The position numbers and the translations under genes were made by a program. DNA of 64,000 nucleotides from Parasphingorhabdus litoris DSM 22379 (lineage in GTDB: Bacteria > Pseudomonadota > Alphaproteobacteria > Sphingomonadales > Sphingomonadaceae). Positions within the stretch are counted from its first letter, which is position 1. Every line of letters begins with the position of its first letter. The notes under the pieces were generated by a model, which ran no database searches, was not told where the DNA came from, and saw only the letters and a program-made list of their open reading frames with translations. The stretch lies in contig NZ_CP086727.1 in the NCBI RefSeq assembly GCF_020906275.1, positions 124,001 through 188,000 on the forward strand, given 5' to 3'. Below, in pieces: positions 35,493 through 38,368 of this stretch.

Positions 35493-36098
35493 ATGATTGC
35501 GAAACTCACCGGCACTATCGACGAAATCGGCACGGACAATATCGTGCTGGATGTTAATGGCGTCGGCTATCTGGTCTTTGCCTCGTCGCGCACCATTACC
35601 GCCATCGGCGGCGTTGGTGATGGCGCGACCATCTATACCGAAATGCAGGTCAGCGAGACCGACATGCGCCTGATGGGTTTTGCCAGCGGGTCGGAGCGTG
35701 ACTGGTTCCGCTTGCTGATCTCCGTACAGGGCGTCGGCGGCAAGGTGGCGTTGGCGATCCTCTCTGCGCTCGAACCCAGCGAGATCAGCCGCGCCGTGGC
35801 GACCGGCGACAAGGCGATGGTCGCACGGGCCAATGGCGTGGGGCCCAAACTGGCGCTGCGCATTGTCAACGAGCTGAAAGACAAAGTCGGCGCCATCGCG
35901 ACTGACCCGGTTGCGGGCAGCGGCGGCGCGATCCACGCGTCGTCAAATAACAGCGCCGACGCGGTGAGCGCGTTACAAAATCTGGGCTTTAAACCGGCAG
36001 AAGCGAGTGCAGCAGTGGCGGCGGCCGATGCCGAGGCGGGTGATGGGGTGACACTGGACGCGCTGGTACGGCTGGCGCTGAAGAAGGCGGCGCGGTGA
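35493..36098 (+). CDS. ruvA: Holliday-junction branch-migration protein RuvA
   Basis: DNA-binding tetramer that targets RuvB to junctions, 201 residues. Domain I is an OB fold (about 1-64, [20 protein letters not shown]). The two helix-hairpin-helix motifs lie near [11 protein letters not shown] and [14 protein letters not shown]. The C-terminal RuvB-contacting domain ends in LALKKAAR. Its stop overlaps the GTG start of the next gene as GTGA. Short diverged copies of its middle and end occur at 36626-36690. Confidence 0.95.
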
Positions 36099-36415
36099 GT
36101 ATTGATCCGCGGTCATGGTCAGTAGCTGCAAAGGCGAATGTTTTCATCGCTTCCTTTTTTCCGGCCTTGTTCACAGTATTTTTCGTGATTGTCGTTGCAG
36201 AATTATCCAAGAAGTCCCTTGAGATACTGCTTTTCGGGTTCGTTGCATTTTTTATAGTCGGGCAGTTCTTCTTCAGATGCTACCAGTGCAAAAAAAACGT
36301 CTATCGCAGGGTATCGGGCGGGTTTCTGGGTGTCGACTATGTGGCACCCTGGTCGGAAACAACATGTTCCAAATGTGGGGCCGATTTGACAGTATCGAAA
36401 GCGGTTGATGGTTAG
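36095..36415 (+). CDS. Unknown small membrane protein with zinc-ribbon-like tail, between ruvA and ruvB
   Basis: A 106-residue protein not recognised as a family. Two hydrophobic segments (about residues 15-38 and 46-64) are followed by a cytoplasmic-looking tail with two Cys-x2-Cys pairs (CYQC at about 66-69 and CSKC at about 96-99), which could bind zinc. It begins with GTG overlapping the ruvA stop. Gene order elsewhere is normally ruvA directly followed by ruvB, so this is an insertion. It is followed by a repeat pair and a ruvB/ruvA scar. Confidence 0.6.
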
Positions 36416-36442
36416 TAGTCACCTCAGCTTCCTACCCACCAT

Positions 36443-36531
36443 CGTCATCCTGAACTTGTTTCAGGATCCCTCGTACGCATCCAAACCCCTTGCCATTTCT
36501 CCCGAGATGCTGAAACGAGTTCAGCATGACG
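36443..36531. repeat. REP-like inverted pair between ruvA and ruvB
   Basis: A 27-base unit starting cgtcatcctgaacttgtttc at 36443 recurs in inverted form at 36505-36531 (read on the minus strand as cgtcatgctgaactcgtttc). Each arm also has internal dyad symmetry. This is a widespread alphaproteobacterial intergenic repeat type. The right arm supplies the ATG of the chimeric ruvB/ruvA remnant. Confidence 0.8.
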
Positions 36532-36690
36532 AGTGAAGTGGAAAGCGACCGGATGATGTCGGCGAAACGCAAGGTTGAAGATATCGACGCTGCATTGCGC
36601 CCAAAATCGCTGGACGAATTTATCGGGCAGGAAGCGGCGCGGGCCAATGGCGTTGGGCCGAAACTGGCGTTGAAGAAGGCGGCGAAGTGA
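36526..36690 (+). pseudogene. Chimeric remnant: ruvB start joined to ruvA fragments
   Basis: A 54-codon open frame. Codons 16-41 ([20 protein letters not shown] and beyond to ARAN) match the RuvB N-terminus. It then switches at ARAN into [10 protein letters not shown] of RuvA, then at LAL into the RuvA ending KKAAK and stop. Over 63 bases of the ruvB part I count seven differences from the intact ruvB at 37343, all synonymous. The ruvA part also differs from the intact ruvA. The switch points fall at short stretches shared by both parents. The stop overlaps the GTG start of the next gene as GTGA, copying the real ruvA-to-next-gene junction. Confidence 0.85.
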
Positions 36691-37346
36691 GTCAGTTCTT
36701 TGAAACGATGATGAGGTCTTTTCCTGAAGCGATCTCTGTGCCTGATCCACTTATCACCTATTTTCGATGGATTGGTGAGCAGGGCTTGGATCATAATTTT
36801 GGTGGAGATGGATATGCCTACGCCGATATTGGGCCAGATCAGGAGAATGGCTGTCTAGCGTTGAGGCCAGTAGATCCTGATTATGCGAGGGCATGGACGC
36901 ATAGCGATGATGCATCCGTTTACGATCGGCTTGCGGCATTTTGTCAAACTGGCGGCGATGGCTCTTATGCTGCGCTATGGCTTGATAATGACGGTGGAAC
37001 CCGAGTCGTCCATTTAGGATCGGGTTCTGGCTCGACCATGTTGGGTGTTCTGGTCAATGATCCTGTCGACCTCTTGCGCTTGCTCGCGATTGGATATGAC
37101 GAGCTTTGTTGGCCAGAAAATCATCGAAAAACACCAAAAGAAATCTGGGCGGAAGACAATGAAGACGAAGAGTTCGAACCCGCTCCAAAACCATCTGTTT
37201 TGCTACAAAAATGGGTGAGCCAAACATTTGATGTGAATATTCCGAAGACCGCTTCAGAAATAGTGTCTGATGTTCCAGACATGCATGATGACAGATCTGA
37301 TGACCCTTTCTGGCAATGGATAGTGAGCCTGGAGCCAAAAGAGTGA
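36687..37346 (+). CDS. SMI1/KNR4-like protein inserted before ruvB
   Basis: A 219-residue soluble acidic protein. The N-terminal part (about 15-150) has the feel of SMI1/KNR4 (SUKH) proteins: an early [15 protein letters not shown], then [20 protein letters not shown] and a C-terminal helix with [13 protein letters not shown] proteins are common immunity proteins of polymorphic toxin systems, though no toxin gene is adjacent. It starts with GTG overlapping the ruvA-like remnant and ends overlapping the ruvB GTG start, so it is embedded in the ruv operon. The family call is from pattern only. Confidence 0.55.
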
Positions 37347-38368
37347 CTGAAGATCGCCTATCCTCGCCCGAGCGAAAAATCGAAGATATCGACGCGGCAC
37401 TGCGCCCGAAATCGCTTGACGAATTTATTGGACAGGAAGCGGCGCGTGCCAATTTGCGCGTGTTTATCGAGGCCGCGAAAAGCCGCAGTGAGGCGCTGGA
37501 CCATACCCTGTTCTTTGGCCCGCCAGGGCTTGGCAAGACGACATTGGCACAGATTATTGCCCGCGAACTGGGCGTGGGTTTTCGCGCGACATCTGGACCG
37601 GTCATTGCCAAATCGGGTGATCTCGCAGCGCTTCTGACCAATCTTGAGGAAGGCGATGTGCTTTTCATCGACGAAATTCACCGGCTCAATCCGGTGGTCG
37701 AGGAAGTGCTCTATCCGGCGATGGAGGACCGCGCGCTCGACCTGATTATCGGCGAAGGGCCATCGGCGCGCAGTGTGCGGATTGACTTGCCTCAATTCAC
37801 CCTGATCGGCGCGACCACGCGGCAGGGGCTTTTGACCACGCCGCTGCGCGATCGGTTCGGTATTCCGGTGCGACTCAATTTCTACAGCGTCGAGGAACTG
37901 GAAAAGGTCGTCCACCGCGCGGCGAAGTTGCTCGGTCTCGATATCGCGCCCGATGGTGCCACCGAGGTTGCCCGCCGCGCGCGCGGAACCCCGCGTATCG
38001 CCGGTCGCCTGCTCCGCCGCGTGCGGGATTTCGCGAATGTGGCGGGGGCTGCGACGGTGGACCAGAAAACCGCCGACGCCTCGCTCACCCGGCTGGAGGT
38101 CGACAGTATCGGCCTCGACGCGATGGATCGCCGCTATCTCCATATGATCGCGGATATCTATAAGGGCGGGCCGGTGGGTGTGGAAACGCTCGCGGCTGGC
38201 CTCAGCGAACCGCGCGATACCATTGAGGAAGTGATCGAGCCATATCTCATCCAACTTGGTCTAGTGGCGCGTACCGCAAGAGGCCGCGCGCTCAATGATC
38301 GGGGGTGGCAACATCTTGGGTTGAAGCCGCCGGCGGGTAAGGAAGTGGACGGGCAGCTGTTTGACTAA
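37343..38368 (+). CDS. ruvB: Holliday-junction helicase RuvB
   Basis: AAA+ motor that drives branch migration with RuvA, 341 residues. Walker A is [13 protein letters not shown], Walker B is LFIDEIHRL, sensor I lies in LIGATTRQG, and the arginine finger region is [10 protein letters not shown] winged-helix end follows. The GTG at 37343 overlaps the stop of the SMI1-like gene and gives the usual sphingomonad start ([17 protein letters not shown]); a frame extending 27 bases further upstream is less likely. Confidence 0.95.

Follow-up and report, generated by a model that had tools for sequence, protein, structure and literature searches.

Minimal mobile elements (MMEs) are reportedly known from Neisseria through the work of Saunders and Snyder in 2002, and they are not known to need a mobility gene of their own. 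A locus of comparable kind is described here, the junction between ruvA and ruvB in a stretch of 64,000 nucleotides (the window) from Parasphingorhabdus litoris DSM 22379 (contig NZ_CP086727.1, positions 124,001 to 188,000, forward strand), where two accessory genes, a repeat and a chimera of ruvB and ruvA pieces separate the two genes. In MMEs, as outlined in an excerpt of PMC3082526, two conserved genes flank different whole-gene cassettes that are incorporated by homologous recombination; that paper and PMC1538595, also in excerpt, cite Saunders and Snyder for the Neisseria elements. Three other systems offer points of comparison: homology-facilitated illegitimate recombination (HFIR), in which one side is homologous and the other illegitimate (PMC3240628); the translational coupling of fixed gene pairs, where ribosomes terminate and reinitiate at a stop-start overlap, for example ATGA or TGATG (PMC10666635, PMC6728339); and rulAB of Pseudomonas, an insertion hotspot for integron-like elements (PMC4542609).

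The ruvA-ruvB junction fits the MME definition in that the two genes flank different whole-gene cassettes, with 18 content types in 28 species of the genus (the comparison being between species, and some contents being repeats). It differs from MMEs in that the flanks are an overlapping gene pair and the contents form a relay of open frames within the genus, in that cassettes stack and leave hybrids of a ruvB head and a ruvA tail, and in that the variation is seen between species and is known here from genomes alone. With rulAB it has in common that a two-gene operon serves as an insertion hotspot, but the gene pair is another one and the rulAB elements integrate site-specifically inside rulB. 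HFIR would give the ruvB-to-ruvA switch of the chimera in one step, with a join at a short shared word (ARAN, 10-11 of 12 bases); HFIR is, however, known from transformation and conjugation experiments, whereas here it would be read from a genome and be accompanied by a further internal deletion. The likeness to translational coupling lies in the overlap of ruvA and ruvB in most other alphaproteobacterial loci and in the overlap at every joint of the window's relay, while the difference is that coupling would here filter insertions between the pair. What sets the case apart is that stacked cassettes are joined by chimeras of the flanking genes, together with the frame relay; the cassette-slot kind is already known. 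No description of a ruvA-ruvB slot, of stacking scars or of the relay was found in an open-access subset of the literature, judged by titles and the start of abstracts.

The reading favoured here, with a probability of about two in three, is that the junction is a slot with swapped cassettes, that the chimera is a scar of one-sided joining where units were stacked, and that retention is filtered by the relay. In most of the loci examined from other alphaproteobacteria the two genes overlap, and their translation is presumably coupled there. In the window's family the junction is a cassette slot of the MME kind, with unrelated whole genes and repeats that would have entered, and been swapped between species, via recombination in the flanking ruvA and ruvB DNA. 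The slot, its variability, the chimera, its recurrence and the overlapping frames are observed directly, whereas the route of entry, the one-sided joining and a selection on the relay are inferred.

The slot in the family and the genus

In other alphaproteobacterial families, ruvA and ruvB are tight at 26 of 28 loci, mostly with overlapping stop and start codons, and two of the 28 have no RuvA within about 1.5 kb of ruvB. These loci belong to a class sample of 53 genomes with RuvB, in which 29 loci besides the window's were measured, one of them (L166) from the window's family. An order sample of 60 genomes contributed every further member of the window's family (16 genomes) and 13 of the 43 genomes from other families. 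The pair is tight in 13 of 13 loci of the other families and open in 15 of the 16 from the window's family, taken as the sphingomonads (16 of 17 with the window; G084 is tight). In the same 17 family genomes, pheS and pheT overlap by 4 bases in 16 and lie 97 bases apart in one. The ruvA-ruvB slot is a trait of the window's family. RuvA similarity brought up 70 more loci from beyond the genus; 51 of them hold at least 150 bases and 14 are empty. Upstream of the pair, the space between ruvC and ruvA can be as long as 2.5 kb in such loci (L074-L148).

Within the Parasphingorhabdus-like genus, the contents of the junction are highly variable, which supports the proposal of an earlier note on this DNA, made from its letters alone, that the gap is a cargo slot. 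RuvB was matched in 31 of 32 same-genus genomes (none in G014), and no RuvA lies on the contig piece in G013 and G021; 29 of these genomes, with L070 from a named collection, gave 30 measured loci, while five loci repeating genus genomes and four others with no measurable gap stand outside the counts. With lengths taken from the end of ruvA to a conserved position some 33-42 bases into ruvB, two gaps are empty, three hold 60-149 bases and 25 hold at least 150 bases, and 25 distinct sizes occur. At the empty locus of G028 (L041), the join reads AAGTGATGACC. On a 28-species tree built from six neighbouring genes, ruvA and ruvB excluded, the 18 content types, assigned by hand, need at least 21 changes, where 17 is the least possible. 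Sister species carry different contents in the pairs L039/L040, L041/L043 and L042/L044, and the same contents in L048/L049. When intervals were clustered by DNA similarity, the ruvA-ruvB junction had the most content clusters of the syntenic block (9 among 26 intervals), followed by the junction from ruvB to its downstream neighbour (6 among 23).

L045 and L047 show the pattern expected if a slot unit had passed from one species to another. These loci have 528 bp of slot in common at 96.6% identity, comprising the tail, the second gene and the stretch up to ruvB, while their ruvA and ruvB stretches are 83-91% identical and the downstream stretch 75%. The shared block stops at ruvB, where identity over the first 150 conserved bases is 86%, and the first cargo genes of the two loci are unrelated and of different families.

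A chimeric frame between stacked cassettes

The window's genome (G000) is a single contig of 3.61 Mb, and the order on its plus strand is ruvC, ruvA, gene 1, a repetitive extragenic palindrome (REP)-like repeat, the chimeric frame, gene 2 and ruvB. The features of the slot, in window positions, are as follows.

35493-36098, plus strand: ruvA (Pfam RuvA_N, HHH_5, RuvA_C; sequence); its GTGA stop overlap starts gene 1
36095-36415, plus strand: cargo gene 1, 106 amino acids; N-terminus membrane-like, with CxxC pairs, and zinc-ribbon matches that stay under the cut-off
36408-36536, plus strand: relay frame that runs across the REP-like repeat and overlaps both gene 1 and the scar frame
36445-36529, no strand: REP-like inverted repeat, arms 36445-36468 and 36506-36529
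36526-36690, plus strand: scar frame, 54 amino acids, ruvB head joined to ruvA middle and tail (sequence, blastn)
36571-36648, plus strand: ruvB-derived conserved part of the scar, 26 amino acids (sequence comparison)
36637-36672, plus strand: part of the scar derived from the ruvA middle, 12 amino acids, overlapping the ruvB part at the shared word
36664-36690, plus strand: part of the scar derived from the ruvA tail, LALKKAAK and stop, with a GTGA overlap with the gene 2 start
36687-37346, plus strand: cargo gene 2, 219 amino acids, possibly an immunity protein of SUKH type (profile and fold support both weak)
37343-38368, plus strand: ruvB, GTG start at 37343 overlapping the gene 2 stop

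The coordinates bear out the order given in the earlier note (ruvA, gene 1, chimera, gene 2, ruvB), and the frame at 36526-36690 is, as that note had claimed, a ruvB start joined to the middle and end of ruvA between two accessory genes. Each accessory gene also starts, as described there, at a GTGA overlap with a ruvA end, gene 1 with ruvA itself and gene 2 with the scar; the REP-like repeat between gene 1 and the scar, which contains the scar's start codon, was absent from that description. Searched with blastn within the slot, the ruvB piece of the scar gives E 2e-24 and the two ruvA pieces 2e-9 and 1e-5, and the RuvA-tail peptide of the scar scores 28, compared with a maximum of 15 over 1893 reverse-strand stops. 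The resemblance of the scar to ruvB and ruvA is far beyond chance. Both joins are in frame, and the switch points do lie at the shared words ARAN and LAL. The seven synonymous changes relative to intact ruvB were counted correctly, but the span reported for them, 63 bases, was not: the compared stretch is 23 codons (69 bases), plus a Val/Ile codon before it.

The seventh of these changes (CGG for CGT) lies inside the shared word and is identical to the ruvA codon. With the switch placed in that word, the ruvB part of the scar carries six silent codon changes and one Val/Ile, and the ruvA part three silent changes and one Lys/Arg relative to the window's own ruvA, making 11 codon differences from the intact genes, nine of them silent and two to similar residues. 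With nine of 11 silent, it is probable that the divergence accumulated while the genes were functional and that the join is recent. The same counts bear on the idea that the scar is an old partial copy of the genome's own ruvB and ruvA, duplicated in place and decaying. Such a copy would need no donor, but one decaying without selection would not spare amino acids, and so the scarcity of amino-acid changes (P 6e-4 if 0.7 of random changes altered an amino acid) makes this origin quite improbable.

The scar was not found in the 24 other genus slots of at least 150 bases, the remaining five genus gaps being shorter than the scar; the structure is thus not one that all relatives carry unchanged, a point on which the earlier note had wanted its proposal judged. 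This distribution also counts against a functional small protein kept by selection. In favour of such a protein, the reading frame stays intact over all 54 codons, but scars elsewhere differ in length and sequence, and an adapter role would explain the open frame, which leaves this the least probable of the explanations considered. A search for ruvB alleles that match the scar gave none, the nearest ruvB having 12 differences in 81 positions, of which the last codon is already ruvA; the ruvB N-terminus of L043 (G027) is of the same type as the scar's. The scar was not found in plasmid or phage collections, nor the slot region in plasmids.

Strains carrying a single accessory gene would also bear on how the two units met. 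A strain with gene 1 alone does exist: in G029 (L042), a 69% identical relative of gene 1 is followed by a similar repeat and then ruvB. A further relative, at 41% identity, is present in G027 (L043), and homologues of gene 1 occupy the same slot in L042, L043 and L047. The counterpart, a strain with gene 2 alone, did not turn up, gene 2 being present in one of 32 genus genomes, the window's own, and in three of 396 genomes of a larger order sample, the window's own counted.

On the favoured reading, the chimera marks where two units were stacked, the first being [ruvA - gene 1 - repeat - ruvB head] and the one behind it [ruvA tail - gene 2 - ruvB]. It would stem from a recombination event with a related species, homologous on one side and joined at a short shared word on the other. 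One-sided recombination would join the ruvB head to the ruvA middle at ARAN, and a deletion between LAL words would shorten the ruvA part. At ARAN, ruvA and ruvB share 10 of 12 bases in the window and 11 of 12 in L039 and L040; exact shared words of 9-13 bases occur elsewhere in the two genes too, and the ARAN site is not exceptional. The LAL-to-LAL switch inside ruvA amounts to a deletion between 9-base direct repeats. The earlier note had instead envisaged two complete ruvA-X-ruvB alleles placed in tandem, with the middle then deleted at short repeats. This would yield the same final gene order, and the second switch is in any case a deletion between direct repeats. However, it calls for a transient genome with two ruvB genes, and RuvB gives a single match at E 1e-60 in 31 of 31 genus genomes and 60 of 60 order-sample genomes, a count that a passing two-copy state would escape; one-sided joining takes a single step for the ruvB-ruvA switch, with no tandem intermediate. 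Tandem collapse is therefore regarded as unlikely.

Hybrids of a ruvB start and a ruvA end between stacked inserts recur in other lineages, in L124, L045 and, more weakly, L274. Stop codons in 91 slots of at least 150 bases were scored against the local RuvA tail, with the 1893 reverse-strand stops as the null. Four slots (L124, the window, L045 and L047) score 26-33, compared with a null maximum of 15 and a next forward row of 15. In L124 (Sphingomonas sp. UNC305MFCol5.2), the frame MTDAGAAPLVGLALRIAAK, ending in a stop codon, is a ruvB-like start joined to a ruvA end, and it lies between a GFA-like gene and a DUF4337 gene. The hybrid frame of L045, MSDLENDRSRISQALLRPVLKKAER, also ending in a stop codon, has repeat-like DNA in its middle, and L047 has the tail of L045 but not its head. 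In L274 the ruvB head is clear (score 44, null best 22), while the ruvA tail is doubtful, being read by eye and not among the 25 best tail-score rows, and the hybrid is kept as a weak case. Judged by these sequences, the window-type structure has arisen at least three times, possibly four. Tail copies before a second cargo gene in L084 and L123 were dropped as scars, since the matching stretch there may simply be where a ParE-like gene ends, and that of L109 was dropped as it lies in a repeat-like stretch.

Integrases act at the 3' ends of some genes, and a ruvA tail ahead of a second cargo gene could be taken for the trace of site-specific integration at the 3' end of ruvA by elements that each carried in a tail copy. 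Tails do lie directly before the second cargo in L068, L045 and L047, and 12 bases before it in L124. Against this, a ruvB head precedes the tail in L068, L124 and L045 (weakly in L274), the tail copies vary in length, a clear copy is present in only four of 91 slots, and no integrase is found among the 30 Pfam-scanned of 106 catalogued slot open reading frames (ORFs). Integration of this type is very improbable.

Open frames from ruvA to ruvB

In the window, the frames 36095-36415, 36408-36536, 36526-36690 and 36687-37346 lead to ruvB from 37343 with an overlap at every joint, an arrangement reproduced in 0 of 500 shuffles. As every frame overlaps the next, the scar among them, the scar probably acts as a translational adapter. 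Relays at other loci were scored with frames of at least 20 amino acids in slots of at least 100 bases, joints lying within 15 bases (loose) or overlapping (strict); L139, which had no start, was dropped. In the genus the relay is complete in 28 of 28 such slots under the loose rule (expected 3.8) and in 24 of 28 under the strict one (expected 1.7), whereas the ruvC-ruvA control in the same genus gives one of 17 and none of 17. Genus slots holding only repeats are complete in 12 of 12 cases by the strict rule (expected 1.6), a set of about three insert types that was picked by eye after the frames had been seen. L124 fails at the floor of 20 amino acids, and at 18 passes the loose but not the strict rule (its scar frame has 19). 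According to an excerpt of PMC10666635, about 20 nucleotides between genes nearly abolish coupling, a limit that the genus relay fits.

Several observations weigh against the favoured reading. Among slots from beyond the genus, no more than 44 of 66 have a complete relay by the loose rule (expected 7.1) and 28 of 66 by the strict (expected 3.0), and the relay is thus no family-wide rule. A second control, yebC-ruvC, is complete in 13 of 13 loose and two of 13 strict, and only two of the 17 ruvC-ruvA control gaps share repeats with the slots. At other places in the genus, 19 of 20 rows of one slot repeat likewise have a core that is open in the relay frame (about 13 distinct copies, often with frame-shifting gaps; row L313, which lies in the G004 slot, was left out), so that part of the relay's openness is built into the repeats, and real genes make relays likelier than shuffles suggest. 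No donor was found, and neither nearest-relative scans along ruvC, ruvA and ruvB nor sliding identity revealed a clear breakpoint in the window's ruvA or ruvB. In addition, ruvC-ruvA gaps are variable as well in loci beyond the genus, so that looseness is not confined to the ruvA-ruvB junction, and the whole ruv locus may be tolerant. With these points in view, the relay is read as real and probably selected in the genus, its strength being overstated by the shuffles.

On the favoured reading, inserts would be retained only where their frames carry ribosomes on from the end of ruvA to the beginning of ruvB, and the scar would survive as a translational adapter, not as a protein. A further and more tentative reading, possible but held at clearly less than even odds, is that the slot is gated by translation, with inserts persisting only as an unbroken frame relay and hybrids kept as adapters for a second cassette. 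If ruvB depends on ribosomes arriving from ruvA, only inserts that extend the relay would persist. The junction of a coupled operon would then be an acquisition site with no mobility genes, a built-in reading-frame filter and guaranteed expression of cargo, and thus a route by which foreign genes with no recombinase of their own could enter a tightly coupled housekeeping operon and be expressed at once. The products of the operon concerned process recombination intermediates. The scars allow the entry route to be read, and the natural series of empty slots, one insert, two inserts and repeats only is suited to testing coupling as a constraint on genome evolution.

Repeats and cargo genes

The arm pattern of the window's REP-like repeat has 19 exact matches genome-wide, both window arms counted. 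Read by eye, ruvB or the scar takes its start codon (CAGCATGAC) from such a repeat in the window (36445-36529) and in the genus slots L054, L056 and L063, and the RuvB N-terminus therefore differs with slot content. In L057 and L061, remnants of a ruvB head (MTDLDRLQFPEH and MTETSFQSPEQ) were seen by eye directly before a REP-like repeat; here the repeat apparently inserted within the beginning of ruvB, which restarted behind it.

Gene 2 itself has no Pfam match, and 915 relatives of its family were found. In an alignment of the family, two of 28 members match SMI1_KNR4 weakly (best E 0.016), and fold comparison points weakly to the SUKH-type proteins Knr4, Tdi1, Tdi2 and RhsPI, such that gene 2 may encode an immunity protein of SUKH type. 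No significant match to gene 2 came from Foldseek, and none from a PDB sequence search with the single sequence; the best PDB matches of the gene 2 profile, 24-residue stretches of designed Pizza proteins, were set aside. A Parasphingorhabdus metagenome-assembled genome (P0001) encodes a 91% identical gene 2, and another relative, L150, lies in a row of short genes. For gene 1, inspection by eye placed one weak relative (L154) between RHS-like repeat frames and six (L155, L156, L160, L161, L162 and L165) at a 4-base overlap with a Mur ligase-like gene.

The cargo catalogue holds 106 ORFs, and the Pfam scan covered 30 from the slots of relatives. The families found are GFA, HNH, DsrE, ParE, HicA, HEPN, DUF4337, GH10, PAP2 and M19, many ORFs having no match, and a common functional theme was looked for among the 30 and not found. 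PADLOC matched one of ten, the HNH protein, and NCBIfam none of eight cargo proteins. The 30 scanned ORFs contain no transposase or integrase (one HNH endonuclease, in L062), and neither do genes 1 and 2. GIY-YIG-like frames bounded by REP-like repeats were seen by eye in L048, L049, L058, L060, L061, L062, L109, L123, L125 and L133, mostly antisense to ruvB, and may be a small mobile element. Toxin-antitoxin genes are also present in the slot, with HicA in L076 (Pfam; its HicB-like partner lies below the cut-off), ParE in L084 (Pfam) and, by eye, ParD/ParE-like genes in L102, L123 and L148.

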